The position numbers were made by a program, and so were the translations under genes. A stretch of DNA of 64,000 nt, from positions 620,001 through 684,000 of the forward strand of contig OX485804.1 of the NCBI GenBank assembly GCA_950295325.1, read 5' to 3'. The notes below the pieces were generated by a model. It was not told the DNA's origin. It was given only the letters and a program-made list of their open reading frames with translations, and did not search any database. How positions within the stretch are numbered: the stretch's first letter is position 1; every line of letters begins with the position of its first letter. The DNA is from Polytrichum commune. Lineage: Eukaryota > Streptophyta > Polytrichopsida > Polytrichales > Polytrichaceae. Shown here piece by piece: positions 3,438 to 57,886 of this stretch.

Positions 3438-3737
3438 ATGGCCATGGCTAGCGCCGTATTTGCGACAAGTGGTGTTGGTGAAACTTCCTCGCCCACAGGA
3501 ACAGATTACCTCACAACCTCGATCCAGTCATGTGTACAAGGTATCGAAGCCCAACTTGTAGGTCATAAATCCCTGCTAAACGGGAGGCAATGTCTGGATC
3601 TCTGTACAAAACTTGTCAAGACCGTCGAGAATGTTCAGAAACTAGTTTCACATTCTCAGGTAGCATCTGGAAGAAATGAAACCTTGCGACCAGCCTTGGA
3701 GAACTTGCAAAGAATCTTGGAAGGTCAAATTAGGTGA
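3438..3737 (+). pseudogene. Truncated kinase gene: N-terminal LNGRQC domain only
   Basis: The 99-codon frame is almost identical to the first 94 residues of the tandem-kinase protein at 25669, including the LNGRQC signature at residues 47-52 and the LRPALENL helix. Identity stops abruptly at about 3722, where the intact copy continues with EKARFLINGC and this copy runs into GQIR and a stop. No kinase domain follows. The break marks the end of the duplicated segment, so this is a gene cut off by the duplication or a later deletion. A short domain-only protein remains possible, because the leader and start codon are intact. Confidence 0.75.
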
Positions 3738-9628: not shown

Positions 9629-12600
9629 ATGGACGAAAACTTCATGCTACTATTGGTCCAATGCTCAACACAAATGAAGAAGTTGGTGCGAGGATCAAAT
9701 TTGTTGAATGGAAACCAATGTTTGCACATGACAAACATATCATCTCTTCTTGTGGAGGGTATCCAAAGCATGGTGAAAACTTTGCATGGAAAGGTCAACC
9801 TTGGATCAAGTATGGAGGATTTGTATCGAGTTATGAAGAGAGTTGAGGTAATAATCCAAGATTGTGGTAAGGTTGATTGGGTTCGTGCATCACTATGGCA
9901 AATGGACAATGAAGAAGAGTTTCGAGAGGTACTTGAAGAGTTGAGATGCAATTTTGACACAATGTGTGGCCAATTTCAATCAATGGGTGTAAATGTACAT
10001 GGCCTTGAAGAATCCATTAACTTTAGTCCAATCAAATTTTTGGAGGTGGAGAAAGACCGAAAGGCGTTGGAGTCCCGTTTGTTGGCACATATTCAAGCGA
10101 CAAAAGAATCTCCTGAAGAGCAAGAGATTGTGAAGCATGCCCATAAGCGGCTGATTTGTCGAATGGATGGAGAAGGCGGGGAGTTGGATGCTGCTAATTT
10201 TCCCACATATCATTGGAGTCCCAAATCGACAACTGCATTGGGCAATAATGGTGTTGGACAAGTATACATGACAAAATGTTTTGGCCTAGACGTTGCAATG
10301 AAGGTTTTTGAAAAGGTTGATGAAGAAAACATCACTATATCAAATGCAAATTTTAAGAAGGAAGTGGGTGTTTTAGCAGGGTTGAGCCATCCCAATATTA
10401 TTAAGTTTATTTGTTGTGGCGAAATCTTGGACAACCAAAAGTTTGGGATTTACATGGTGATGGAGAAAATGGACAAGAACCTCGCAGATCATTTGGACAA
10501 CAAGACTTTGAGAAAATCTTATCTTGTTACCATTGATATTATAATGCAGATTGCAAGAGGTATGTTTTACCTTCACGACATGAATGTTGCTCATCGTGAT
10601 TTGAAACCTGAAAATGTCCTTGTCAACTCTTGGGGGGACTCTAAGTTGGATGGGATGGGTTATGTGAAAGTGAAGTTGGCGGACTTCGGAATTGCAAAAA
10701 TCAAAGCCAAGGATGTGTATGAGGAGCCAACTTTGGGAAAATTAGGAACGACTGGGTATAGAGCTCCAGAGACTTTTGTCAAAGGTGGCAAGGCAAATGC
10801 TTTCAAAAGCGATGTATTTTGTTTTGCCATGTTGTGTTCATATGTTCTCACCACAACCACACCATTTCAAGGAAGGACTCCATCATCTATAAAGAAAAGT
10901 ATGGAGGATGGAGAACGACCAAAGTTGCCCCTTGATTGCCCTAAGTCCTTGGCAGCTTTGATTGAACAATGTTGGTGTCTACAACCGTCAGAAAGGCCAA
11001 CGTTTGAACATATTTGTATGAGGCTTGGCAAAGTAAAAGGGGAGCTTTTGGAGAATACTCAAAAGATCTCGAATGGTTGGATCAATCTTAACACCTTTGG
11101 GCAAAATCGGTTTCATTTGCTTCAAGCTCTTGTATCTTGTTTTTGGTTGTGGTTCCAAGTGATGGTAAGTTGGATGAGGGCATGCGTTTGGTTTATATCG
11201 GGAAAGATGAACGGTGTGGATCATGTGAACATTCCGGCTAGTACATATGCAAACAAAGGAGAATGCGATGTGTTAGTCGGATCCATACATTGCATGGAAC
11301 TCACGAGGACAAAGGCTCAACACAATGGTGCACAAGAGCTTGTTGGTATGGACAAAAGAAAGTTAAAGGTGATGACGGAATTGGTTAAGCACTCGATGGT
11401 GGTCATCATCGGGATGGGTGGAATGGGGAAAACCACTTTGGCAAAGTATATGATGGAGCATATGTGCCAAGAATTTGATGTATCGTGCTTCACGTTCATG
11501 AAAGCCCAAGGATGTGGTATTTTAGAAATATTGAAAGACATTTTGAGCAACCTAGGAGTGAATCATGAGAATGTGATTGACATTGCAGAAGGGAGAAGAT
11601 TGCTGGAGGAAAAATTCACTAAGCAAAGGACTCTCATGGTTCTAGATGACATTGGTAGTGTAGACCAAATCCATGAATTAATGGATCTTGAGATCTTCAA
11701 AGTGGCCCCTGTGAAGAACAAAATGATCATCACAACTCGTGATTGGGGCCTTGTCGAAAGCCTTGAAGGTGCTCAACGAGTGGATATGAATGAGTTGAAT
11801 TTGGATGAAGCTATGAATTTGTTTACTTTACATGTTTGTGACAATCAAAGGGTCTTTGAAATACCACCTCATGTGGAAGACATAGCGAAGAGAATTGTGG
11901 AAACTTGTAGGGGACTTCCTTTAAGCTTGAAGGTTGTGGGTTCCACATTACATGGAATTGATCGCGTGCGCATATGGATGAGGACTTTGCAAAGGCTACG
12001 AAGGGCAAGATCGTTAGGTTCAGAAAACAATATGGAACTTTGGCAGTGCTTACAAGTAAGCTTTGACGACCTCAAGAATGAAGAAGACAAGAACATATTT
12101 TTGGACATGTGTTGTTTTCTTAGCAAAGATTTGTTTGCGGAAGGTATGTTAAGAGTTGAAACTGCTTTGCAAATATGGAGCAACATCAACGAAAACCCTA
12201 CAAAATCCTTGAAACGTTTGGAAGAAAACTCTTTGGTCAAGATTGGCAAAGACGGAGGCTTGGAAATGCATGACCAATTACGAGACATGGGCCGCATGAT
12301 TGTGGAAACACAGTCCGACTATATGGGAACTCGTTTGTGGAACATACATGCTACAAAATGGAATGAGGAAATTGGAAAAGATATGAGGCACATGGAAAGT
12401 CTTTCCTACAATGAACCAACAAAGGAGGTCAGATTCATGGACATGAAGGAACCATTGCCTTCTCTTCGATTGTTCAATTATCAAGGGTGTGAGAGTCTGA
12501 TATCAATAGGACCTATTGTGAACCACTCTAAGCATCTTAGTTGTTTGTTGGTGAATTGCAAACAAAAAATCTTCATGTCTAGTGGTGAAGTAATGCAAAA

Positions 12601-14095
12601 TCCAATCTCCTTTGTGAAATGGGAAAATCTTCTGCATTTGAAGGTTTTGGTGATTACGGGTGTATCCAACTTAAAAGCACTACCTGAAAGTATTTATGGG
12701 TTGGTATCATTGAATGAAATGACAATACAAAAATGCTATAAATTTCAACACGTACCACAGAGCATAGGATCTCTACCCTCTTTGAGAGAACTAAATTTAT
12801 GTGGATGTAGAATTTTGGAGTACGTTCCTATACAAGTTGGCAACTTGACCTCCTTGACCACCTTGAATTTAAGGGGTTGTAAGGGCTTGAAGGAGATTCC
12901 GGAGGCGTTGGGTAATTTGACCTCCTTGACCACCTTGGATTTAAGGCGTTGTAAGGGCTTGAAGGAGATACCGGAGGCGTTGGGTAATTTGACCTCCTTG
13001 ACCACCTTGGATTTATGGGGTTGTACGGGCTTGAAGGAGATACCGGAGGCGTTGGGTAATTTGACCTCCTTGACCACCTTGTATTTAAACAATTGTGAGG
13101 GCTTGAAGGAGATACCGGAGGCGTTGGGTAATTTGACCTCCTTGACCACCTTGGATTTAAACAATTGTGAGGGCTTGACGGAGATACCGGAGGCGTTGGG
13201 TTATTTGACCTCCTTGACCACCTTGGATTTAAGTGGTTGTACGGGCTTGAAGGAGATACCGGAGGCGTTGGGTAATTTGACCTCCTTGACCACCTTATAT
13301 TTAATCAATTGTAAGGGCTTGGAGGAGCTACCGGAGGCGTTGGGTAATTTGACCTCCTTGACCACCTTGCATTTAAGTTGTTGTACGGGCTTGAAGGAGA
13401 TACCGGAGGCGTTGGGTAATTTGACCTCCTTGACCACCTTGGATTTATGGGGTTGTACGGGCTTGAAAGAGATACCGGAGGCGTTGGGTAATTTGACCTC
13501 CTTGACCTCCTTATATTTAATCAATTGTGAGGGCTTGAAGGAAATACCGGAGGCGTTGGGTAATTTGACCTCCTTGACCACCTTGTATTTAAGTGGTTGT
13601 ACGGGCTTGAAGGAGATACCGGATGCGTTGGGTAATTTGACCTCCTTGACCTCCTTATATTTAATCAATTGTGAGGGCTTGAAGGAGATACCGGAGGCGT
13701 TGGGTAATTTGACCTCCTTGACCACCTTGCATTTAAGTGGTTGTACGGGCTTGAAGGAGATACCGGAGGCGTTAGGTAATTTGACCTCATTGACCTCCTT
13801 GTATTTAAACAATTGTGAGGGCTTGAAGGAGATACCGGAGGCGTTGGGTAATTTGACCTCCTTGACCATCTTGAAATTATGGGGTTGTACAGGCTTGAAG
13901 GAGATACCGGAGGCGTTGGGTAATTTGACCTCCTTGACCACCTTGCATTTAAGTGGTTGTACGGGCTTGCAAGAGATACCGGAGGCGTTGGGTAATTTGA
14001 CCTCCTTGACCACCTTGAATTTATGGGGTTGTACGGGCTTGAAGGAGAAACCGGACGCATTGGGTAATTTGACCTCCTTGACCATCTTCCATTGA
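9629..14095 (+). CDS. Kinase-NB-ARC-LRR immune receptor (PNL-class NLR)
   Basis: This uninterrupted 1488-codon frame encodes a four-part protein. Residues 1-130 are a helical domain with the LNGNQC signature (26-31) shared with the other kinases of the window. Residues 195-470 are a TKL-type kinase that looks active: glycine loop GNNGVGQV, K225, E245, HRD D324, DFG D352, APE. Residues 495-524 are strongly hydrophobic. Residues 570-900 are NB-ARC, with P-loop GMGGMGKTT (595-603), Walker B LVLDD-like D673/D674, TTRD, GLPL and MHD (880-882). From about 1020 there are LRRs, of which 17 full copies are near-identical 24-residue units. This order is the PNL class described from mosses; such proteins are cytosolic, nucleotide-switched immune receptors by family. 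The start is supported because the shared helical domain begins within a few residues of M1. The frame ends inside an LRR without a C-terminal cap, and about 12 more units follow the stop, so the present protein may be shortened. Confidence 0.9.
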   Translation: MDENFMLLLVQCSTQMKKLVRGSNLLNGNQCLHMTNISSLLVEGIQSMVKTLHGKVNLGSSMEDLYRVMKRVEVIIQDCGKVDWVRASLWQMDNEEEFREVLEELRCNFDTMCGQFQSMGVNVHGLEESINFSPIKFLEVEKDRKALESRLLAHIQATKESPEEQEIVKHAHKRLICRMDGEGGELDAANFPTYHWSPKSTTALGNNGVGQVYMTKCFGLDVAMKVFEKVDEENITISNANFKKEVGVLAGLSHPNIIKFICCGEILDNQKFGIYMVMEKMDKNLADHLDNKTLRKSYLVTIDIIMQIARGMFYLHDMNVAHRDLKPENVLVNSWGDSKLDGMGYVKVKLADFGIAKIKAKDVYEEPTLGKLGTTGYRAPETFVKGGKANAFKSDVFCFAMLCSYVLTTTTPFQGRTPSSIKKSMEDGERPKLPLDCPKSLAALIEQCWCLQPSERPTFEHICMRLGKVKGELLENTQKISNGWINLNTFGQNRFHLLQALVSCFWLWFQVMVSWMRACVWFISGKMNGVDHVNIPASTYANKGECDVLVGSIHCMELTRTKAQHNGAQELVGMDKRKLKVMTELVKHSMVVIIGMGGMGKTTLAKYMMEHMCQEFDVSCFTFMKAQGCGILEILKDILSNLGVNHENVIDIAEGRRLLEEKFTKQRTLMVLDDIGSVDQIHELMDLEIFKVAPVKNKMIITTRDWGLVESLEGAQRVDMNELNLDEAMNLFTLHVCDNQRVFEIPPHVEDIAKRIVETCRGLPLSLKVVGSTLHGIDRVRIWMRTLQRLRRARSLGSENNMELWQCLQVSFDDLKNEEDKNIFLDMCCFLSKDLFAEGMLRVETALQIWSNINENPTKSLKRLEENSLVKIGKDGGLEMHDQLRDMGRMIVETQSDYMGTRLWNIHATKWNEEIGKDMRHMESLSYNEPTKEVRFMDMKEPLPSLRLFNYQGCESLISIGPIVNHSKHLSCLLVNCKQKIFMSSGEVMQNPISFVKWENLLHLKVLVITGVSNLKALPESIYGLVSLNEMTIQKCYKFQHVPQSIGSLPSLRELNLCGCRILEYVPIQVGNLTSLTTLNLRGCKGLKEIPEALGNLTSLTTLDLRRCKGLKEIPEALGNLTSLTTLDLWGCTGLKEIPEALGNLTSLTTLYLNNCEGLKEIPEALGNLTSLTTLDLNNCEGLTEIPEALGYLTSLTTLDLSGCTGLKEIPEALGNLTSLTTLYLINCKGLEELPEALGNLTSLTTLHLSCCTGLKEIPEALGNLTSLTTLDLWGCTGLKEIPEALGNLTSLTSLYLINCEGLKEIPEALGNLTSLTTLYLSGCTGLKEIPDALGNLTSLTSLYLINCEGLKEIPEALGNLTSLTTLHLSGCTGLKEIPEALGNLTSLTSLYLNNCEGLKEIPEALGNLTSLTILKLWGCTGLKEIPEALGNLTSLTTLHLSGCTGLQEIPEALGNLTSLTTLNLWGCTGLKEKPDALGNLTSLTIFH

Positions 14096-14953
14096 TGACC
14101 TTATAATGGCTTGAAGGAGATACCGGAGGCGTTGGGTAATTTGACCTCCTTGACCACCTTGGATTTAAGTGGTTGTACGGGCTTGAAGGAGATACCGGAT
14201 GCGTTGGGTAATTTGACCTCCTTGACCACCTTGGATTTAAAAAATTATGTGGGCTTGAAGGAGATACCGGAGGCGTTGGGTAATTTGACCTCCTTGACCA
14301 CCTTGAATTTAAGAAATTGTAAGGGCTTGAAGGAGATATCGGAGGCGTTGGGTAATTTGCACTCCTTCACCACCTTGGATTTAAGTTATTGTACGGGCTT
14401 CAAGGAGATATCCGAGGCGTTGGGTAATTTGCACTCCTTCACCACCTTGGATTTAAGTGGTTGTACAGGCTTGAAGGAGATACCGGAGGCGTTGGGTAAT
14501 TTAAACTCCTTGACCACCTTGAATTAAAGAAATTGTAAGGGCTTGAAGGAGATACCGGAGGCGTTGGGTAATTTGACCTCCTTGACCACCTTGGATTTAA
14601 GTATTTGTTAGGGCTTGAAGCAAATACCGGAGGCGTTGGGTAATTAGACCTCCTTGACCATCTTGAAATTATGGGGTTGTACGGGCTTAAAGGAGATACC
14701 GGACGCATTGGGTAATTTGACCTCCTAGACCATCTTCCATTGATGAGCTTATAATGGCTTGAAGGAGATACCGGAGGCGTTGGGTAATTTGACCTCCTTG
14801 ACCACCTGGAATTTAAGAAATTGTAAGGGCTTGAAGGAGATACCTGGGGCGGTGGGTAATTTGCACTCCTTGACCACCTTGGATTTAAGTGGTTGTACAG
14901 GCTTGAAGGAATTACCACAGGCGTTGGGTAATTTGACCTCCTTGACCACCTTG
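12834..14953 (+). repeat. 72-bp tandem array encoding 24-residue LRRs (about 29 units)
   Basis: Each unit encodes a repeat of the form LGNLTSLTTLxLxxCxGLKEIPEA. Seventeen full units and a partial one lie within the gene up to the stop at 14093-14095. About twelve more continue in the same frame to 14953, broken by stops near 14096, 14525, 14609 and 14645. DNA of the framework is almost invariant, while changes cluster at the codons around LxLxxCx. A distinctive mutated unit (CCATTGATGA...TTATAATGGC) occurs at about 14089 and again at about 14737, 648 bp or nine units apart, showing a block duplication within the array. The array produces long spurious frames on the opposite strand. Confidence 0.95.
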
Positions 14954-16199
14954 CGACGAGCAAGCGAAAGCTATAAGAATGCTTGGCCAATTGAAAGAGC
15001 AGAATCGAGTCAAAGATCTCGGTCTGTCTTCAACAATTTCACCCGCATCGGAGACAAATGACCTGGTTCTAGAAGATCGACATACATTGAAGGAGAGACT
15101 TCAAGACATGGCCAAAAGCAGTACCTCATCAGATAAGCATAAAGAGTACCTTGTGAGATTCATGTTGAGAAAACTAGAAGTTTGGTCTGGAGAGCAAAGT
15201 ATTGAGAATTTGGACCCATCTGATCCAATAAGTTTGGGTACCATTTCAGAAGTGCAAGATACAGAGGACAATGCATTGTCGGGTGAACAGGAACTGGCGT
15301 CTAAAGTGCAAAGAATTGAGAATGTGGGCATGTCTGATGCAATAGATTTGGGTTGAGATTCGGAATTGCAACATGGATGGGAGAATGCCAATTTAAAAAT
15401 CATTGGAAGCGGAGCACATGGAGTTGTTTTGTCCACCAAATGGCATGGCATCCCCTGCGCCAAGAAGGTATTTGATGTGAAGACCAGTCACATTTTTCAG
15501 AGGGAAGCAGCTGTGCTGAGATGCCTGAACCACCCGAACATTGCCAAGTTCTTCTTTTGTGGCACTGAAAACCAGCAATGTTTCATTGCGATGGAGCTAA
15601 TGCATATGAGTCTGCATGAATTGATCAAGGAACGTAAAGGAAGGCCATTTTCGACTAATGTAGCAATAAACATCATTTTGCAAATCGGGAATGCAATGTA
15701 CTATCTACATAAACAGGGGATTGCACATCGTGACCTCAAATCACTTAACGTGGTGATCAACAAAGTGTCAACCACTCCACACCCTGGTGACAAATTTCAG
15801 GTGAAGTTGGTTGATTTTGGGTTGTCAAAGACAAAGGTGGAAGCTTCCAAGACCAACCCAGTGTCTATAAGAAATTGTGGCACCACAACATATAGAGCAC
15901 CAGAGGTATTTTCCAATGGAGATGATCCTGAAAAGGTGGTTTGGTTCAAGGCGGATGTATATAGTTTTTCTTTGATCTGCTCAGCAATTTTGTCCTTGAA
16001 GGAGCCCTTTGAAGGTGTATATGCAAAGACCTTGATCTGCCAGTTGCGCAACGGTCTGAGGCCACGTCTCCCACAAGATTGCCCCAAAGAGTTGGCTGCA
16101 CTCGTGGAAGAATGTTGGAATGAAGAACCTAAGTTACGACCCAGTTTTCTAGCCATTCGCACAAGGCTGGAGAAACTTGTTTTCTCGAGTGAGAATTGA
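14954..16199 (+). pseudogene. 5'-truncated kinase pseudogene fused to the LRR array
   Basis: From CGACGAGCAAGC onward the sequence matches 56641-57886, the middle and end of the intact single-kinase gene, at high identity. The N-terminal domain and leader are missing, replaced by the LRR array, and the two reading frames do not match across the junction. The kinase frame carries one nonsense codon, TGA at 15354-15356, where the intact paralogue has TCA (57041-57043). Downstream, the 277-codon frame 15366-16199 retains all catalytic motifs (GSGAHGVV, CAKK, HRDLKS, DFG, APE). It is therefore young and was inactivated by the truncation plus this single change. Use of an internal start after the stop cannot be excluded but would lack a promoter of its own. 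Confidence 0.85.
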
Positions 16200-25668: not shown

Positions 25669-28600
25669 ATGGCCATGGCTAGCGCCGTATTTGCGACAAG
25701 TGGTGTTGGTGAAACCTCCTCGCCCACAGAAACAGATTACCTCACAACCTCGATCCAGTCATGTGTGCAAGGTATCGAAGCCCAACTTGTAGGTCATAAA
25801 TCTCTGCTAAACGGGAGGCAATGTCTGGATCTCTGTACAAAACTTGTCAAGACCGTCGAGAATGTTCAGAAACTAGTTTCACATTCTCAGGTAGCATCTG
25901 GAAGAAATGAAACCTTGCGACCAGCCTTGGAGAACTTGCATAGAATCTTGGAGAAGGCGAGGTTTCTTATCAACGGGTGCTCTGAAGTAGATTGTAAAGC
26001 GTTGATATTTCAGATGCAAAATGAAGAGGCCTTTCGAGAGATTTTGTATGAGGTAGGCTTGTGTTACAATGCCATCTACGAGCAAGCCAAACATATGGTA
26101 CAATCGGAAGGGAGGATTCTTGGAGTGGAAGATCTCCGTGAGTCGAGTTCTACATTTGTGCCGGCACTGGAAAGAGAGGTTCTCGAAGATCAACACACAC
26201 TGCAGACAATACTTGAGAATCTTGTCAGGAGTCCATCAAATGACACAAAGATTCAATGCCTTGCAAAGTACTTGTTGGACAATCTGAAATTCATATGCGA
26301 ATATAGCGGGGGGAACAGAGTGGCCCGCTCGATGATGTCTAATGCGGTGATGTGGGTGACCGAAACAGAAACGCAAGGTACTTGGAATACCAAAGGCTTC
26401 GTTGGAAATGGAGCAGGGGCTAAAGGTGTTTTGGACACTGAATGGCTTGGAATCCCCTGTGCCAAGAAGATTTTCAAAGCTCACAACTCAGAGTATGCCG
26501 ATTTTTTGGGACTCCAAGGGACTCTTGGCTATTTGGCAAATATCCCAAATTTGTTTGGCTTCCAATCTATAAAGAAGGAGCTTCGCAGCCAATTGGAGGA
26601 TTTTACTTTTCGGAAGGAAGTGGCACTCCTGGCACGCCTCAATCATCCGAATGTTGTCAAGTTCTTCTGTTGTGGTAGTGATTCAAAAGATGAATGTTTC
26701 ATTGGGATGGAGCTTATGGAGATGGACCTGTCTTCCTTGATTAGAAGGCGTGAAGGAAAGCTGTTTGCGATTGAAGTGGCACTGGACATCATTTTGCAAA
26801 TTGCGTGTGGGATGCTCTATCTTCATGATCGAGGGATTGCACATCGAGACCTTAAACCTTTGAACGTGGTAATCAGCAAAGTTCCTAACTCTCCACATGT
26901 TGTTGAAAATTTCTGTGTGAAGTTAATTGACTTTGGTTTGTCAAAGGCTAAGGTACAAGCCTCCATGTCCAGTACAGTATCAATCCCGAACTGTGGCACC
27001 GTAACATATAGAGCTCCAGAGGTGTTTTCCAAGGCACATGAGCACGTTCCGCGTGGAGGTGAACAGAAGGTGAATTGGTTCAAGGCGGATGTATACAGTT
27101 TTGCTTTGACATGCTCAGTGATTCTGTCCTTGAAGAAACCCTTTGAAGGGCGGTACCTTGAAGACGGGGAGGAGGATGGGCGGTACCTGGAGTTAATAAA
27201 TGGTACTCGGCCAGAGATTCCCTCAAGCTGCCCTAAAGAGTTGGATGCACTTTTGAAGGAATGTTGGGAGACAAATCCTGAAAGAAGACCCCATTTCTCA
27301 ACCATTTGCATGAGGCTTGAGAAGTACAAGCATGGTCTTTTAAGAAGCCTATCTACTTCTATGGATGAAGGTTTGGAGGAGGTGAAATATGATGCAAGAA
27401 GTGATTGCACCGCATGCATTGAGAGGCTCCTTGAGGAGCGTTCTCGACATCGGAGTTCTATTAAGGATCTTGCCACAAATTCATCTGCTGTCGAAGCTGA
27501 GGTAATCATAAAGGCAATCATGATGATACCCTACTATGTGGGTCGTGGAATCCTGTTGAATGGATGGCAATTGTCCTCAAACCTGCCAAGCTGGTTTAGA
27601 CGGTGGTACAAATCTGTTGGAGCTGCTGCTCATCGTTCTTCTCTTGAAGCAGAGTACTCAAGTCTTGAACATGATTACTTGTTACTCTCCGTGCAATGTG
27701 CGAAAGATATTGCACAGGTTCAACGTGTTGGTTACGAAACTCTGCTAAACGGAAAGCAATGTCAGCATTTATCTTCGGTGATTGTGAAATGCGTTGAGAA
27801 CATTCATAGACTAGTGTCAGATTTTGGAGCATCGAGAGCGGAATCCTTTCGACCAGGATTGTGGAACTTCTACATAATCTCGGAGAAGTTGAGAAGGCTC
27901 GTGAATCAGTGCTGTGAAGCAGATTGGTGTAGAGCAGCCGTTTTCCAGATTCGGAATGAAGTGGCCTTGCGAGAGATCTTGGTGGACATAGAATTCGGTT
28001 ACAATGCGATTTTCGACGAAGCCAAGAGTATGAGTGATCAGGAAGGGAAGACTTCTGAAGTAGAAGTGCTTCGCCGGTCTTCAACATTTTCCCTCGTATC
28101 GGAGGGTGAGATTTTTGAAGATCGTTGTAGCGTGAAGAAGAGACTCGAGAACATGGTGGAAAGTGCCGGCTCTTCAGATGAGCATAAGCAATGCCTTGCA
28201 AGATACTTGTTGGGCAGATTGGGATTCATATATGAAGAGCATCATTTAGAAATATTTGCATCTATAAAGGAACTTGAGGACTTGGTTAATAGTACCGCGT
28301 CATCAAAAAACCTGGACCAGTTGGATCTTTGTGTATCTGCATTGCCTTATTTAGAACATCGGTCAAAACTGTGGAATAAAATTTACGATTTGTCCAAAGG
28401 CATCGGCTATTTAGAAGTGGGAAAACCACACTTTGCAAGTTCCTTGTTGCAGGGATTACAAGAAGAGCTTGTCACGCATCTGAGTGAAGCAACATTTTGG
28501 GTGACTAAGAAGGAACCGCCAGGGACGTGGACACACGAAGGTAGAATTATTTCACAATCTTCTGCTGGAATTGTAATGTCTACCAAATGGCTTGGAATCC

Positions 28601-29355
28601 CCTGTGCCAAGAAATTTGTGTCTTCGGAGAATGCACATTATCAGTTTTGGAAACCTGCAAAAGTAATGGCACGTCTGCACCATCCGAATATTATTAAAGT
28701 CTTCTGTTGTGGCAAAGACGAACGAGAAGGGCATTATTTCATTGGGATGGAACTTATGGAGACGGACTTGTCTGATTGTATCAGAAGTCGCGAAGGGAGG
28801 CCATTTCCAATCGTTGTAGCACTTGACATTATTGTGCAAATAGCGCGTGGGATGCGGTATCTGCATAGTCAGGGCATTGCACATCGGGATCTCAAGCCAG
28901 GAAATGTGCTCATCAGCAGAGCACTTAACACCACAGAGCTTGGCGACACTTTCTGTGTGAAGGTCTCTGGTTTTGTCATTTGCAAGGCAAACGTGGAAGC
29001 CTCTAAGGCCGAAGTACCAACAGGCAAGGCCGTTAATGGCACCGCCGGTTATCTGGCTCCAGAGGTGTACGCTAGAAGAGCTTTACCATTGAAACCGTTC
29101 AAGGCGGACATTTTCAGCTTCGCGATGACTTCCTCAGATATATTATCCTTCAAACGACCCCCTGCTTTGGTGTCCGGGAAACTCCTCAGAGACTATGTAG
29201 GAGCGATAGATGCGGGTGTGAGGCCCGAGATCGCATCAAGGTGCCCCAAAGAGTTGGTTGCTCTTCTGAAAGAGTGTTGGGATGCAAACCCCGAGTTACG
29301 CCCCGACTTTGATGCCGTTTGTACAAGGTTACAGAAGATTGTTCTGTGTCACTGA
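25669..29355 (+). CDS. Tandem kinase-pseudokinase protein with duplicated LNGxQC domains
   Basis: The single 1228-codon frame is an internal duplication of one unit, helical domain then TKL-type kinase. Unit 1: LNGRQC at 47-52; kinase with loop GNGAGAKGV, K267, E317, HRD D394, DFG D421, APE, all present. Unit 2: LNGKQC at 693-698; kinase with K982 and HRD D1074 kept, but the glycine loop reads ISQSSAGIV, the helix-C Glu is P996 and DFG is replaced by GFV (1101-1103). Kinase 2 is thus a predicted pseudokinase. Kinase 1 also has an insertion of about 33 residues between its Lys and Glu. An active kinase followed by a pseudokinase is the layout of plant tandem kinase proteins, several of which are cereal rust- and mildew-resistance proteins. 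The helical domain resembles the DUF1221/MLKL-like bundle N-terminal to plant TKL kinases. Start ATG at 25669 is shared with the truncated copy at 3438. Likely cytosolic or membrane-peripheral; no signal peptide seen. Confidence 0.9.
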   Translation: MAMASAVFATSGVGETSSPTETDYLTTSIQSCVQGIEAQLVGHKSLLNGRQCLDLCTKLVKTVENVQKLVSHSQVASGRNETLRPALENLHRILEKARFLINGCSEVDCKALIFQMQNEEAFREILYEVGLCYNAIYEQAKHMVQSEGRILGVEDLRESSSTFVPALEREVLEDQHTLQTILENLVRSPSNDTKIQCLAKYLLDNLKFICEYSGGNRVARSMMSNAVMWVTETETQGTWNTKGFVGNGAGAKGVLDTEWLGIPCAKKIFKAHNSEYADFLGLQGTLGYLANIPNLFGFQSIKKELRSQLEDFTFRKEVALLARLNHPNVVKFFCCGSDSKDECFIGMELMEMDLSSLIRRREGKLFAIEVALDIILQIACGMLYLHDRGIAHRDLKPLNVVISKVPNSPHVVENFCVKLIDFGLSKAKVQASMSSTVSIPNCGTVTYRAPEVFSKAHEHVPRGGEQKVNWFKADVYSFALTCSVILSLKKPFEGRYLEDGEEDGRYLELINGTRPEIPSSCPKELDALLKECWETNPERRPHFSTICMRLEKYKHGLLRSLSTSMDEGLEEVKYDARSDCTACIERLLEERSRHRSSIKDLATNSSAVEAEVIIKAIMMIPYYVGRGILLNGWQLSSNLPSWFRRWYKSVGAAAHRSSLEAEYSSLEHDYLLLSVQCAKDIAQVQRVGYETLLNGKQCQHLSSVIVKCVENIHRLVSDFGASRAESFRPGLWNFYIISEKLRRLVNQCCEADWCRAAVFQIRNEVALREILVDIEFGYNAIFDEAKSMSDQEGKTSEVEVLRRSSTFSLVSEGEIFEDRCSVKKRLENMVESAGSSDEHKQCLARYLLGRLGFIYEEHHLEIFASIKELEDLVNSTASSKNLDQLDLCVSALPYLEHRSKLWNKIYDLSKGIGYLEVGKPHFASSLLQGLQEELVTHLSEATFWVTKKEPPGTWTHEGRIISQSSAGIVMSTKWLGIPCAKKFVSSENAHYQFWKPAKVMARLHHPNIIKVFCCGKDEREGHYFIGMELMETDLSDCIRSREGRPFPIVVALDIIVQIARGMRYLHSQGIAHRDLKPGNVLISRALNTTELGDTFCVKVSGFVICKANVEASKAEVPTGKAVNGTAGYLAPEVYARRALPLKPFKADIFSFAMTSSDILSFKRPPALVSGKLLRDYVGAIDAGVRPEIASRCPKELVALLKECWDANPELRPDFDAVCTRLQKIVLCH

Positions 29356-30760
29356 AGGTTCACGGCATGTGAATTTTGATCAATGTGCAATGAAACTCAC
29401 AGGCGCATGGGCACCATCGCACTCACCAATGCAGCAATCAGGTATATCATTATTGTACTTATTCGTGTGCCATAACTAGGATCTTGAAGGATTTTACCTG
29501 AATTTGCTTGGACTCCTGTTCAATGTCGAAGTTAATATTAGAATATGTTGTGATTATTGCACGAGTGTAGTATCGTTGTGAGAGCTCAAACCCTAGAGAG
29601 AGCTCAAAATGTATCCAGTACAATTACTTTGGGATAGTGTAACCTTGGAGTTACAGTGCAAATGCTGCACGAAATACTGTAGTTAGTGTCATATGGTAAT
29701 TTATGTCACTGTGGTAACTTTCCTAATGACACTCCTCTCGAATAAGTTTTATAAGTATGGACTGTCATCCCAACTTACCTTTAGTTCATCCACAATTAGT
29801 GAAACATTTTCATGAAATGAAATGAAATTGAATTTGAAGTCCGGGAAGTTGAAAAGGCTAATGGGATTAAAAGTACATCATGATGGGTTCCAACCAGCTA
29901 ATTCTGTAGAAGGGCGGAGTGCAGTAGCCTCCGTGAAGCTAATGTTAACTTGTTGGTCTAATTGAAAGGAAGACTTGAGGCTCCTTGAAAATATGTTCTC
30001 AAATATGTTATGGAAACTTATCTCTAATGGGGTTGTGTAGGGGACATTCCAACATGGAATGTGCCATGTTTTCAACTGCATTATAGGAGAAAAAGTGGCA
30101 TAGTCTAGCATCTCTAGAGATAGGGATAATTGTCCATCGTCTGTTTTCAATGACAAGTCTAGGGAATATTCCCCACATTCAGACCGAATGTGGAAAATAC
30201 AGGGAATATTCCTTAGAATACAGTCAGTCCTTGCAGAACACTATTATTGATCTGAATAATGTTATGAAGAACTTTCTAAACTCAGAGACTAATTAAATTT
30301 TCTTTCAGAGTGATCACTAAAAAATAAAAATGTAAACTCATTTTAAATAGTATTGATGAGAGTGTTCAATATGATTGACTAAAATCATATCTGTGCCAAC
30401 AGAGTGATGGAAAATTGAAAGCATTAGAATAGGATCTTGAAGTAGACAAACTATCGAAATCTTTCTTTAGGTGTAAGCAAAAAAATCATCGATTGGGAAC
30501 ATCTAGTCCGTTTATGAATTTTTATGATCATGAAGTTTTTTTTTGTAAGTGATAGACAATTTTAGAAGTTACTCTAATTATCATTACCATGAAACTTGTT
30601 GTGATTATAAAGTTAGAAATAATTTATCCCAATGTAAAAAAGGAATCAAATGGGAGTAAAAATCTATCTAAAATTTGACATAACTTCATCAAAGCAGTAT
30701 AACATTCAAATTGGTTATTGCTATAATTCTCATCATTTTGACAGTTAGTAAAACCTTAGT
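29356..30760. other. Intergenic region downstream of the tandem kinase
   Basis: No gene is recognised. The segment includes the 3' flank of the tandem-kinase gene, a partial MITE-like piece (29665-29810) and a small hairpin flanked by a direct repeat at 30161-30212. The rest is AT-rich. Confidence 0.5.
29665..29810. mobile_element. Partial or decayed copy of the TTTAGTGTCA MITE family
   Basis: TTAGTGTCATATGGTAATTT, the following CACTGTGGTAAC, and GAATAAGTTTTATAAGTAT match the left half of the element at 32130 and the element at 61774. The right end was not found, so this may be a truncated copy. Confidence 0.4.
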
Positions 30761-48307: not shown

Positions 48308-50149
48308 ATGAGCCAACTTTTGTTATCATCGATGTTCGGTCGTATAAGTAAAGAGGAGAATCAATCTTATATTGAGAAGGCTGCTGAGGTTGACCGGTTG
48401 GAGCACAAAGATAAGAGGAAACCTTGTGAAATTATCAAGAAACCGGTTGGTAGACCTAAAAAAATTAGAAGATTGGAGATGAGTTTGGTTTCCAACATAT
48501 CTCCAATATTGCAACCTTCATCTTCTGGTACTAATGCTAGGGTGAGGGGGCCTTACACCAATTGGTTTACGCATGAGCTTTGGCCTCCAATTGAAGCAGC
48601 TATGAAACAACACAAAAATCATACTGCTGCATTGAAATATTTGAGGATCACTCATCGCACCAAGGGTACATCTACAGGGCCTTACGATAAATTGTCACGA
48701 GGAAGTTTAAATGAGTGGTTCACAACCAGTGGAGAGATTCGAGGTCATGTTTTTGCATGTGTTGCAAGAGAACACGCATTTGTACCTCAAGGGCAACACA
48801 TGCCACCACTTCAATCGCATATGGAGGTTACCACAGAACTTGTGGAATTACTCTTAAGTATGAGGGAAGCAGGTGTTTCTTTGCATGCTGGAATTGTTCA
48901 ACCAATCATTATTGGTTTTCTCCAAGAAAAAGCCCCCGAAGTACTTCAAAAATTGAAGGTGTCATTGAATTGGACTAGGAGATTTATGCGATCTAGGCTC
49001 AATTGGCGATTTCGGAAGCCCACAACGGTTAAGGGTAAACTTCCAACTGATTGGGTAAATCAAGGTCACATGATGACCTTGAGAATTGCATACTTGGTTA
49101 AACTATACAACATACCTCTTAGTCTTGTGGTGAATACTGATCAAACAAGCATACATTTGGTACCATTAGCTGGAGATAGGACTTGGGAAAAGAAAGGATC
49201 CAATGATGTTGGCGTTATTGGAGGTGATGACAAAAGGGCTATCACTGCTTGTGTATCTTCAGCAGCAAATGGTTCTTTACTTCCGCTTCAACTCATATTT
49301 TCAGGGACTACAAAGAGAGTCTTACCCAAAACTCAGCGAGGACGGCAAGGCCTTGATTATGGTTTTCATTTCACTATGAGTGGGAATCATTGGTCGAATT
49401 TGGAATCTATGAAACAATTTGTGAATTTCATAATTGTTCCATATCTTCACCGTGAGAGTGACAGGTTAAATCTTTCTAGTTCGCAAAATATGGTGTGGCT
49501 TATTGATTGTTGGAGCGTACATACCAGTTCAGAATTTCGACTTTGGATGAAAACAACTCATCCCCGCATTTTGTTGCTTTATGTGCCGGCCAATTGTACA
49601 TCTAAATTTCAACCAGCAGATGTTGTCTTACAAAGGCCTTTAAAATGTGCTTTTGCAAATTTTTTTAAGTTATGGTCTGCAAGTGAAATTCAAAGGATGG
49701 TGGCTAGTAAAGTGCCAGTTGGTGCAATGAAGGTTGATAGTTCAATGGAGACAGTCCGTGAAAATGCTGCTGAGTGGATGTTTATGGCTTGGGATAAGCT
49801 TCGAGTTCATAAAGAGATGATTGCATCCGGTTGGGCGCGATGTGGGATTCTAAAAGCGTGGGACTTTCAAATTCAGAATGAAGCAATGAGAGTGAATTTT
49901 GAGAAATCTCTTTTTGGAGAATTAGGCAATCTTGTTGAAGACCAAAATTCGGAATTAGATGTTCCTGATTATTATTTAGACATGGATGTTTTAGATTGTT
50001 TAGCTCGTTGTGTGTCTAACTTGAGCATATCTGATGAGATAGACTTACCTGATTTGAATGAAAGTCTTGACTTGGAGAATGACATACTAGATTTTGCACA
50101 TTTTGATTCTACTGGGACTGAAGAATGCCCACCAACAAGTGAGAATTAG
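48308..50149 (+). CDS. Pogo/Tigger-like transposase
   Basis: The 613-residue protein has an AT-hook-like segment KKPVGRPKK at residues 44-52 and a CENP-B/Tc5-type helix-turn-helix region around 185-240 (ending NWTRRFMRSRLNWRFRKP). A DDE_1 catalytic domain follows, with D278 (NTDQTS), D400 (LIDCWSVH) and D438 (QPADVVLQRP), the expected three acidic residues. It cuts and reinserts the surrounding element at TA sites. The frame is open throughout. The ATG follows a pyrimidine-rich stretch ending CATACAG at 48300, which may be the 3' end of a 5'-UTR intron. The tail after about 560 is acidic (DLPDLNESLDLEND) and may be a regulatory extension. Confidence 0.92.
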   Translation: MSQLLLSSMFGRISKEENQSYIEKAAEVDRLEHKDKRKPCEIIKKPVGRPKKIRRLEMSLVSNISPILQPSSSGTNARVRGPYTNWFTHELWPPIEAAMKQHKNHTAALKYLRITHRTKGTSTGPYDKLSRGSLNEWFTTSGEIRGHVFACVAREHAFVPQGQHMPPLQSHMEVTTELVELLLSMREAGVSLHAGIVQPIIIGFLQEKAPEVLQKLKVSLNWTRRFMRSRLNWRFRKPTTVKGKLPTDWVNQGHMMTLRIAYLVKLYNIPLSLVVNTDQTSIHLVPLAGDRTWEKKGSNDVGVIGGDDKRAITACVSSAANGSLLPLQLIFSGTTKRVLPKTQRGRQGLDYGFHFTMSGNHWSNLESMKQFVNFIIVPYLHRESDRLNLSSSQNMVWLIDCWSVHTSSEFRLWMKTTHPRILLLYVPANCTSKFQPADVVLQRPLKCAFANFFKLWSASEIQRMVASKVPVGAMKVDSSMETVRENAAEWMFMAWDKLRVHKEMIASGWARCGILKAWDFQIQNEAMRVNFEKSLFGELGNLVEDQNSELDVPDYYLDMDVLDCLARCVSNLSISDEIDLPDLNESLDLENDILDFAHFDSTGTEECPPTSEN

Positions 50150-55545: not shown

Positions 55546-56248
55546 CACATTCAACTCCTTATGGTGGTTATGGTATAACTGGATTCGATATCAAAATTTG
55601 ACAATGTGTAAGTGGATCATGTAAAGAATCTTCACTATGTTCAAATTGTAGACATGGTTACAGCTTATAGCCACAGTTTTCTTCTTGCAAAGATTGCAGT
55701 TTGGTGTTGAATGACGCTCATAGGCGAAGTGAGCTGTAGCCCCAAGTTGAAGTGCATACAAGTCTGCATTCTGAGAGTTTCAACGTGATTGTGCTGTAGA
55801 GTGCTGTAGAGGGGACCCCATCTCTCTCTCTCCCTCCCCTTAAGTTTTGTGGAAAAATAGGTTGTTTGTGAACTACTATGCAAAACCCTACGGATCGGAG
55901 CAAGAAGTGTTTGCCGAGGTCGAATGTCCGTGCAGGCCGACTTATTTTAAGGTTTTGTGGGGATATAAAGTTGTGACCCCACTTGTTAGGGATTCTTGTA
56001 GGGAATAGTGAACAGGTAGAAGGGGACGAGCACGCGTATCGCGAAATTAGACGCTTGCCGGATGGAAAGGCAACCCAAGGAATCGGCGGGCAGAGAGGGA
56101 AGGGGTGCCCTTTGAAGCGCTTCTGTTGTCGACAGGATATCTTCAAAATTCGCGGTGTTTATGGAATAGTGGAACTGAAGGCTGGAGTTTCATCGCTGTT
56201 ATTGCCTCTTCTTTTTATTCAACGAGCAGGTCTCCATTGGGCCCAAAA

Positions 56249-57886
56249 ATGTCAACCTGGGTGAGGTGGTTGTTTCATGCCATTGAACTTTGTTCCGGTT
56301 CTTCTCTTGAACCAGATTACTTGAAACTCTCTGTTGACTGTGTGCAAGATATCAAGAATGTGTTATGTACTGGTCATGAATTGCAATTAAACGGGAGGCA
56401 GTGTCAGGATCTTGCTTCGAAGCTTGAAATTTTCGTGGAGAAGATGCAAAACCTAGTCTTAAATGTTGAAGCATCAGGTTTGAGATCCTTTTATCCAGCT
56501 TTGAGGAACATGTACAGAGTCTCGGAGAAAGCGAAGTTGCTTGTCAATGACTGCTCCAAAGAAGATTGGTGTAGAGAATCCATGTTTCAGATCCAGAATG
56601 AAGAAGCATTTGTAGGGATTTTGCGGGAGATAGGGTTATGCGACGAGCAAGCTAAAGCTATAATAATGCTTGGCCAATTGAAAGAGCAGAATCGAGTCAA
56701 AGATCTCGGTCTGCCTTCAACAATTTCACCCGCATCGGAGACAAATGACCTGGTTCTAGAAGATCGACGTACATTGAAGGAGAGACTTCAAGACATGGCC
56801 AAAAGCAGTACCTCATCAGATAAGCATGAAGAGTACCTTGTGAGATTCATGTTGAGAAAACTAGAAGATTGGTCTGCAGAGCAAAGGATTGAGAATTTGG
56901 ACCCATCTGATCCAATAAGTTTGGGTACCATTTCAGAAGTGCAAGATGCAGAGGACAATGCATTGTCGGGCGAACAGGAACTGGCATCTGAAGTGCAAAG
57001 AATTGAGAATGTGGGCCTGTCTGATGCAATAGATTTGGGTTCAGATTCAGAATTGCAACATGGATGGGAGAATGCCAATTTAAAAATCATTGGAAGCGGA
57101 GCACATGGAGTTGTTTTGTGCACCGAATGGCATGGCATCCCCTGCGCCAAGAAGGAATTTGATGTGAAGACCAGTCACATTTTTCAGAGGGAAGCAGCTG
57201 TGCTGAGATGCCTCAACCACCCGAACATTGCCAAGTTCTTCTTTTGTGGCACTGAAAACCAGAAATGTTTCATTGCGATGGAGTTAATGCATATGAGTCT
57301 GCATGAATTGATCAAGGAACGTAAAGGAAGGCCATTTTCGACTGATGTAGCAACAAACATCATTTTGCAAATTGCAAATGGGATGTGCTATCTACATAGC
57401 CAGAAGATTGCACATCGTGACCTCAAATCACTTAATGTGGTGATCAACAAAGTGTCAACCACTCCACACCCTGGTGAAATATTTCAGGTGAAGTTGGTTG
57501 ATTTTGGTTTGTCAAAGACGAAGGTGGAAGCTTCCAGGTCCAACCCAGTATCAATAAGAAATTGTGGCACCACAACATATAGAGCACCAGAGGTATTTTC
57601 CAAGGGAGATGATCCAGGAAAGGTGGTTTGGTTCAAGGCGGATGTATATAGTTTTTCTTTAATCTGCTCAGCAATTTTGTCCTTGAAGGAGCCCTTTGAA
57701 GGTGTATACGCCAAGACCTTGATCTGCCAGCTGCGCAACGGTGTGAGGCCACCTCTCCCACAAGATTGCCCCAAAGAGTTGGCTGCACTCGTGGAAGAAT
57801 GTTGGAATGCAGAACCTAAGTCACGACCCAGTTTTCTAGCCATTCGCACAAGGCTGGAGAAACTTGTTTTCTCGAGTGAGAATTGA
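56249..57886 (+). CDS. TKL-type protein kinase with N-terminal LNGRQC helical domain
   Basis: The 545-residue protein is the single-unit form of the module found doubled in the 25669 protein. Residues 20-145 are the helical domain (LNGRQC at 47-52; a PALRNMYRVSEKAKLLVNDC helix pair). Residues 275-540 are a kinase with loop GSGAHGVV, K302, E315, HRD D391 followed by LKSLN, DFG D418 and APE, all intact, so it should phosphorylate Ser/Thr. An acidic linker with two similar SDPISLG/SDAIDLG motifs joins them. I chose ATG 56249 over the upstream in-frame ATG at 56105 because homology with the other family members begins at MSTWVRW and a strong splice acceptor lies just upstream. Family members of this form precede or resemble plant MLKL-like and DUF1221 kinases. 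It is the intact donor or sister of the pseudogene at 14954. Confidence 0.9.
   Translation: MSTWVRWLFHAIELCSGSSLEPDYLKLSVDCVQDIKNVLCTGHELQLNGRQCQDLASKLEIFVEKMQNLVLNVEASGLRSFYPALRNMYRVSEKAKLLVNDCSKEDWCRESMFQIQNEEAFVGILREIGLCDEQAKAIIMLGQLKEQNRVKDLGLPSTISPASETNDLVLEDRRTLKERLQDMAKSSTSSDKHEEYLVRFMLRKLEDWSAEQRIENLDPSDPISLGTISEVQDAEDNALSGEQELASEVQRIENVGLSDAIDLGSDSELQHGWENANLKIIGSGAHGVVLCTEWHGIPCAKKEFDVKTSHIFQREAAVLRCLNHPNIAKFFFCGTENQKCFIAMELMHMSLHELIKERKGRPFSTDVATNIILQIANGMCYLHSQKIAHRDLKSLNVVINKVSTTPHPGEIFQVKLVDFGLSKTKVEASRSNPVSIRNCGTTTYRAPEVFSKGDDPGKVVWFKADVYSFSLICSAILSLKEPFEGVYAKTLICQLRNGVRPPLPQDCPKELAALVEECWNAEPKSRPSFLAIRTRLEKLVFSSEN

Follow-up and report, generated by a model that had tools for sequence, protein, structure and literature searches.

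Two MLKL-type units in one frame

The window analyzed here is a 64,000-nucleotide stretch from the moss Polytrichum commune (contig OX485804.1 of GenBank assembly GCA_950295325.1, positions 620,001 to 684,000; C2:620001-684000 in the assembly searched, which comprises 408 Mb in 64 contigs), and the gene under study occupies positions 25669-29355 of its forward strand. This gene is a single unbroken frame, with an ATG at 25669 and a stop codon at 29353-29355, and encodes a protein of 1228 amino acids made up of two bundle + kinase units. Judging from homology, the protein is almost certainly a double (tandem) plant MLKL: each half contains a HeLo-type helical bundle, a brace, and a kinase resembling the tyrosine kinase-like (TKL) group, and is homologous to Arabidopsis MLKL3 along its length. 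Two kinase stretches were recognized by Pfam (PF07714, E 9.4e-68), HRD motifs were located at residues 392 and 1072 and LNGxQC motifs at 47 and 693, and an NB-ARC domain was not found in the protein by Pfam search. An earlier reading made from the letters alone (the sequence-only reading) had described an unbroken frame with two helical-domain and kinase units; its coordinates proved exact and its residue numbers right, although it overlooked that the repeated unit is a plant MLKL. The features of the window are collected in Table 1.

The same reading had credited the first kinase with every catalytic residue, and GAGAKGVL, CAKK, FRKEV (containing the helix-C Glu), HRDLKPLN, IDFG, and APE were all found in kinase 1. 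Kinase 2 retains the Lys (CAKK), HRDLKPGN, and APE, and the losses listed for it were also recovered, namely most of the glycine loop (SQSSAGIV, in which only the third Gly is retained), the helix-C Glu (P996), and DFG (GFV at 1101-1103). Pro occupies the helix-C Glu position in all six kinase-2 copies found, the DFG position of the other five reads GFV, NFL, DFR, GFG, and GFG, and in one complete copy (L004) kinase 2 additionally lacks the Lys. All six lack the helix-C Glu and the first loop Gly, so these losses are older than the spread of the copies. The two units of the tandem protein diverged long ago, given a synonymous divergence (dS) of 0.85 between the bundles and 1.1 between the kinases. 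A pseudokinase like that of the AtMLKLs is seen in unit 2 and not in unit 1; Pm13 is an MLKL whose kinase looks active (PMC10951266). Beta3 and helix C are 44 residues apart in kinase 1, as opposed to 7-8 in the three other units measured, and this extension was present in all eight unit-1 copies and absent from every other row of the alignment.

Searches of the PDB with the whole tandem protein returned 6lba and 6ka4, which we take to be AtMLKL3 and AtMLKL2, as the top two matches, both to kinase 1 (among the best 60 of 2302 rows). A profile built from 36 units of this genome matched 6lba at E 6.1e-72 in one continuous alignment (profile 34-507 to 6lba 20-518) that spans the bundle, brace, and kinase in the same order; the LNxxQC-type motif of 6lba reads INQRQC in this alignment. 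When the profile was restricted to the bundle (16 sequences), the best PDB match was again 6lba (E 7.8e-6), and the remaining 13 rows, mostly labelled designed proteins, had E values of 0.0042 or worse. No plant receptor-like kinase (RLK) structure occurred among the best 60 PDB rows of either the whole-protein or the 36-unit profile search, which comprised MLKL, RIPK1, roco4, CTR1, RAF, MLK, TAK1, EGFR, Src-family, and similar kinases. Pfam matches to the bundle were weak, and below the cut-off where one was given, both for the 36 units at E up to 1 (MLKL_N 11, RPW8 9, DUF1221 3) and for the 16 bundles (RPW8 7, MLKL_N 6, DUF7792 5, DUF1221 1), and no Pfam family matched the unit-2 bundle alone. 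An AlphaFold2 (AF2) model of unit 2, based on a 36-sequence alignment, had a mean predicted local distance difference test score (pLDDT) of 76 and a predicted template modeling score (pTM) of 0.80, with long helices at model residues 16-33, 41-65, 67-94, and 110-138 followed by a kinase fold. A fold search with this model gave only kinase domains among the matches listed, the kinase filling the list, and a viral library added nothing.

Table 1. Coordinates of the tandem gene, its parts, and related genes in the window
Feature	Position	Strand	Basis
Piece of bundle 1 (74 aa, 98.6% identical) from a further tandem-type copy	3501..3722	+	sequence comparison
Moss-class NLR (PNL type): bundle + kinase unit, NB-ARC, LRR; 1488 aa, one frame	9629..14095	+	Pfam, alignment, bundle comparison
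Single-unit MLKL copy truncated at the 5' end; open kinase frame at 15366-16199	15009..16199	+	sequence comparison
Tandem MLKL gene, 1228 aa + stop	25669..29355	+	open frame; four further complete paralogues
Helical (HeLo/MLKL-type) bundle 1, residues 28-150, LLNGRQC	25750..26118	+	bundle profile, best PDB match 6lba
Brace 1, residues 151-232	26119..26364	+	homology to 6lba; borders approximate
Kinase 1, residues 233-560, catalytic motifs intact	26365..27348	+	Pfam, alignment
Kinase-1 extension between beta3 (CAKKIF) and helix C, 44 residues	26476..26607	+	alignment
Linker, residues 561-672, ending in a leader resembling the N-terminal leader of neighboring single-unit genes	27349..27684	+	leader match scores
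Helical bundle 2, residues 673-800, LLNGKQC	27685..28068	+	AF2 helices (block pLDDT 72-92), bundle profile
Long brace 2, residues 801-945	28069..28503	+	alignment; AF2 model residues 204-216 and 225-287 under pLDDT 50
Pseudokinase 2, residues 946-1228	28504..29352	+	Pfam, alignment, AF2
P996 replacing the helix-C Glu	28654..28656	+	alignment of six kinase-2 copies
GFV replacing DFG	28969..28977	+	alignment of six kinase-2 copies
MLKL gene with a single unit, 593 aa when read from GTG	56105..57886	+	Pfam MLKL_N E 0.014, under its cut-off

The array, the neighboring NLR, and the origins of the tandem families

The assembly was searched for tandem-type copies (38 of 732 candidates scored), kinases (138 of 766), and NB-ARC domains (118 of 453, including one match on C7 at 33.1 Mb). 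At least eight tandem-type places were located at C2 443-739 kb, five of them complete (the window copy included; 87-100% identity) and three ending before kinase 2. At least eight single-unit places, also 87-100% identical and one with an internal stop, lie at C2 413-720 kb, and five of the eight have a tandem copy ~7-10.5 kb downstream of them, in the same orientation. Kinase 2 proper was found at six of the 138 kinase places scored. The immune-gene array also contains a DDE_1 transposase domain, encoded in an open frame of 613 codons (window 48308-50149), and a dispersed repeat of ~350 bp lies downstream of the tandem gene at 29812-30164, with copies of 81-86% identity on all seven long contigs.

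In a whole-unit tree (32 rows), of the kind that the sequence-only reading had proposed for the two units, each C2 unit formed one clade (100/100), and unit 1 and unit 2 of a second tandem family, on C1, were sisters (100/99). In approximately unbiased (AU) tests, holding the first units of the C1 and C2 families together was rejected (p-AU 0.024), as was holding the second units together (0.009); the groups tested were named after a first tree, in which support for the C1 sisters was lower (kinases 89/78, bundles 86/88). Because of the sister placement of the C1 units and these rejections, the two families appear to have arisen separately, which agrees with the second half of the suggestion of the sequence-only reading that the architecture arose early or more than once; with this single genome searched, an early origin is conjectural. 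The two C1 members, L009 (11.03 Mb) and L010 (10.90 Mb), have two units each with catalytic motifs in both kinases. Their open frames are 1137 and 1167 codons long, with a hydrophobic C-terminal tail identified by eye.

For the C2 family, duplication and fusion were compared, and neither was clearly preferred by the trees: support for unit 1 with unit 2 was 65/56, and p-AU values were 0.48 for unit 2 with the cluster singles, 0.48 for unit 1 with the cluster singles, and 0.29 for unit 1 with the C5 singles. The leader of unit 2 best matched the leaders of cluster singles (scores of 66 and 82 vs. a shuffle mean of 24; 0 of 500 shuffles as high), scored 40 against unit 1's own leader (0 of 500 as high), and scored 32-34, above shuffles, against three other leaders. 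Unit 2 terminates just past the kinase, like most neighboring single genes, and the tail of unit 1 matched C5-type tails weakly (28-35; in the two best cases, 11 to 36 of the 500 shuffles reached the score). The leader matches and the similar end after the kinase together lean toward fusion of neighbors, over internal duplication, as a candidate origin of the C2 tandem.

Upstream of the tandem gene, the nucleotide-binding leucine-rich repeat receptor (NLR) at 9629-14095 begins with the same bundle + kinase unit. NLRs combining a kinase, a nucleotide-binding site (NBS), and leucine-rich repeats (LRRs) have been reported as a moss class, PNL (PMC3352924), and the window NLR fits this class in its predicted domains. 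Such NLRs are abundant in this genome (at least 118 NB-ARC matches listed), and among those 118 matches there was no other match of the window NLR's NB-ARC at C2 0.41-0.75 Mb. Their abundance supports a bryophyte source, as does a chlL gene on C8, a contig outside the seven long ones; chlL is not known from angiosperms. The sequence-only reading had placed the tandem gene beside an NLR; that NLR is real, but among the matches listed it adjoins only one array copy, and NLR adjacency was dropped as a cluster-wide feature. NB-ARC frames were found near other units (for example, C2:56246744 with 56247852, C3:1506698 with 1507800, and C5:18482058 with 18480755). This is the pattern that PNLs would show if an intron separated the two parts, and Physcomitrella PNLs have been described as having a conserved phase-0 intron at the kinase-NBS border (PMC3352924).

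Unlike the Physcomitrella PNLs, the window PNL carries its kinase, NB-ARC, and LRRs in one uninterrupted frame. Its LRRs lie in a 72-bp unit repeated in tandem (29.3 copies, 87% matches, 12845-14953), and the repeat extends ~860 bp beyond the stop at 14095; related genes have open frames of 2140 (L040) to 3674 codons, and the window copy may be truncated. One PNL-type kinase (L021, C1:22.1 Mb) has an odd glycine loop, GNCDGGGV, with DFG and HRD kept.

Sequence change in kinase 2 and a proposed role

Among the five complete copies, 353 changes were counted, under which 15.4 stops would be expected if the frame were neutral, and none was seen (P 2e-7); for kinase 2 alone, 5.0 were expected and none was seen (P 0.007). 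The nucleotide alignment has 10 internal gaps, each a multiple of three in length, and frame shifts that compensate one another are absent. Part of the change looks purifying: the ratio of nonsynonymous to synonymous change (dN/dS) was 0.59 in bundle 2 and, between the C3 and C2 copies of kinase 2, 0.70-0.90 at dS 0.20-0.26, and the C3 copy (L008), a lone kinase 2 without a bundle, is still open at dS 0.2. Change within kinase 2 was uneven: 18 of 39 columns of the activation segment vary in amino acid, compared with 55 of 240 elsewhere in the domain (Fisher p 0.005). Site models (M1a/M2a in our own implementation; six copies for kinase 2) fitted ~30% of kinase-2 sites at a dN/dS (w) near 0 and ~11% at w ~10, with twice the log-likelihood difference (2dlnL) at 74. 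The fast residues are 939, 963 and 965 in the glycine loop, 986, 990, and 992 at the start of helix C, 1017, 1100 and 1103 flanking the DFG position, 1119-1121, 1123, and 1126 in the activation segment, and 1138, 1169, 1170, and 1173.

The kinase-2 2dlnL remained at 46-97 when L008, L004, L002, L003, L004 and L008 together, or the neighborhoods of gaps were dropped, or when a star tree was used, and was 21 and 56 for the two halves alone. Array controls gave 15 (kinase, seven singles), 18 (bundle + brace, six singles), 2 (bundle 2), and 23 (kinase 1), and unit 1 gave 13; the array background is therefore raised. The largest value in a parametric bootstrap of five replicates was 8.7. When a diverged stretch was chosen by eye in L002 and another in L004, their nearest matches elsewhere in the genome were again kinase-2 copies (at most 84% and 77% identical), so that a recent conversion with some other copy of this assembly as donor is less likely. 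On these comparisons, the complete copies keep the whole frame open while the rim of the kinase-2 cleft and the activation segment change fastest.

Taken as a whole, the interpretation that we put forward is of an MLKL-derived tandem protein in immunity or cell death, with pseudokinase 2 as sensor or regulator, and we give it even chances. An intracellular immune or cell-death protein of a diversifying, resistance-gene-like array is inferred because plant MLKLs (PMC9950082) and Pm13 (PMC10951266) are reported to act in immunity, because the genes cluster as resistance genes do, and because kinase 2 changes fast. A tentative division of labor, somewhat less secure than the statement as a whole, would have pseudokinase 2 sense, kinase 1 relay, and the bundles or the NLR execute. 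In that scheme, pseudokinase 2 would serve as a variable bait or sensing surface, and an effector or partner bound there would alter how pseudokinase 2 is positioned relative to the other domains; kinase 1 would pass the change on by phosphorylation, and one or both bundles would act on membranes or engage an NLR, leading to cell death. This order of events is modeled on the decoy and helper-NLR schemes described for cereal tandem kinases (PMC6170490, PMC8956640, PMC12830362).

A number of results weigh against a selected, pathogen-sensing kinase 2. Average dN/dS is ~1 in both kinases (1.08 for kinase 2 and 1.5 for unit 1 under model M0), and NG86 estimates for the five complete copies were 1.18 for bundle 1, 1.05 for brace 1, 0.99 for kinase 1, 1.26 for the linker, 0.59 for bundle 2, 1.11 for brace 2, 1.21 for kinase 2, and 1.97 for the kinase-2 activation segment, with no region differing from 1 by binomial test (activation segment p 0.20). 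The stop test took in the five complete copies and left out the three truncated ones, and is thus biased toward intact frames. Without the columns that contain two- or three-nucleotide steps (45 of 143 variable columns), the kinase-2 2dlnL drops to 21, within the control range, and recombination within kinase 2 is likely because its two halves yield different trees. Synonymous change in kinase 2 exceeds that of the 3' flank (90-91% identity of noncoding sequence between C3 and the window, compared with dS 0.20 and dN 0.15 in kinase 2), and selection on the protein alone is not enough to explain this. Kinase 2 is absent from three of the eight tandem-type copies of the array; one shared deletion of 1.94 kb (corresponding to window 28295-30235) removed it from L005 and L006, and L007 is a fragment with the same end point. 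When residues 29-1228 were modeled with AF2, the placement of the units relative to each other was not reliable (pTM 0.50). Accordingly, the earlier suggestion of selection and not random decay stands in part, in that the complete copies keep the frame open against neutral expectation, but a dN/dS of ~1, the copies lacking kinase 2, and the L004 kinase 2 without its Lys make it too strong.

The same results could be read as relaxed constraint, with kinase 2 a remnant of the fusion or duplication, free to change and on its way out, as the dN/dS near 1, the three array copies without it, and the further loss of the Lys in L004 would suggest. We consider this unlikely, given the absence of stops against 5.0 expected (with the intact-copy bias), gaps that are all multiples of three, the open lone copy on C3, and change that is clustered and not evenly spread. 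A one-chain relay resembling necroptosis is likewise improbable in our estimate: here kinase 1, as the RIPK3 part, would phosphorylate the pseudokinase of unit 2, as the MLKL part, and free bundle 2 for the membrane. A single chain does hold a unit 1 with an intact kinase and a unit 2 with bundle and pseudokinase, RIPK1 leads the PDB rows whose best stretch falls in kinase 2 (best 60 of 2302), and no other region tested has a dN/dS as low as that of bundle 2, but the activation segment, which kinase 1 would have to phosphorylate, is one of the most variable stretches, and L005 and L006 keep bundle 2 open without kinase 2, a weak point as both are identical there.

Allostery like that of JAK, with pseudokinase 2 keeping kinase 1 off (or on) without pathogen contact and the bundles acting as dimer or docking handles, would fit the presence of kinase and pseudokinase in the same chain, and the JAK parallel has been drawn for plant kinase-pseudokinases (PMC6170490); it does not predict fast change of the pseudokinase surface, and copies without kinase 2 occur, so that we regard it as quite improbable. 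That two genes have been read as one, through separate transcripts or a hidden intron in the linker, is very improbable. The linker does end in a leader like those of neighboring single genes and gives no sign of constraint when taken by itself (with five copies, 1.8 stops would be expected; P 0.16), but its frame is open in all eight array copies, and the separately arisen C1 family likewise has an open linker.

Returning to the immune sensor proposal, a broader and rather doubtful extension would see one bundle + kinase death module in three receptor designs (single MLKL, double MLKL, and PNL), doubled independently in at least two lineages, in one of which the second kinase would have turned into a hypervariable pseudokinase that senses pathogens and is joined to an executioner of its own. 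Such a protein would do in a single chain what the RIPK3-MLKL pair, or a cereal tandem kinase with its NLR, does with two.

Relation to known immune proteins

Plant MLKLs, tandem kinases, and kinase NLRs are already known kinds of protein. A literature search covering titles, abstract openings, and passages, with few subscription papers, found no tandem MLKL with kinase and pseudokinase, no separate second family, and no PNL N-terminus read as a whole MLKL unit; the 2025 tandem kinase atlas (Reveguk et al.) lay outside its scope and may list a moss tandem MLKL. Kinase fusion immune receptors are described in one paper as specifically found in cereals (PMC12830362), and tandem kinase proteins as such are reported from many plants (PMC6170490). 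By homology, MLKL is a second parent family from which a kinase paired with a pseudokinase, as in the resistance proteins of cereals, has been assembled, so that the tandem MLKL links two plant immune stories, that of MLKL-type cell-death proteins and that of kinase-pseudokinase resistance proteins. It does so in a plant without flowers, whose genome has a chain uniting the bundles with both kinases, copies that naturally lack kinase 2, and a separate family with two intact-looking kinases, and these natural variants are ready-made domain comparisons for asking what the pseudokinase contributes.

The tandem protein shares with the plant MLKLs 6lba and 6ka4 a bundle with an LNxxQC-type motif, a brace, and a C-terminal kinase fold, and 6lba has GFG at the DFG position, as do two of the kinase-2 copies. 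It differs in having two units per chain, in a unit-1 kinase that appears catalytic, and in coming from a moss, whereas the plant MLKL family has been described as conserved across seed plants (PMC9950082). Wheat Pm13 likewise combines an MLKL-type N-terminal domain with a kinase that keeps its catalytic residues, but it is a single unit, and its kinase is of the RLK type (DLSV / LRR_8B) (PMC10951266).

Rpg1, Yr15/WTK1, and Sr62 also have two kinase domains per protein, with the pseudokinase second in WTK1, and an origin by duplication or fusion has been proposed for tandem kinase-pseudokinases (TKPs) (PMC6170490, PMC8956640). The moss protein has the two kinase domains of a TKP, one with the key residues and the other without. 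A 2018 survey of plant TKPs assigned 112 of 184 domains to the WAK or LRR_8B type and some to MAP3K, and noted no further conserved domain in 92 proteins (PMC6170490); this last trait does not extend to the moss protein, in which an MLKL-type bundle precedes each kinase, although later definitions may be wider. Cereal TKPs are largely RLK-derived, whereas the moss kinases are MLKL-type, each with its own bundle. Among moss PNLs, the window copy shares the bundle + kinase unit at its N-terminus, and kinase-type NLRs have also been reported elsewhere (PMC11218826). In PNLs, an NB-ARC and LRRs follow the kinase, whereas the tandem protein has no NB-ARC and falls outside that class.

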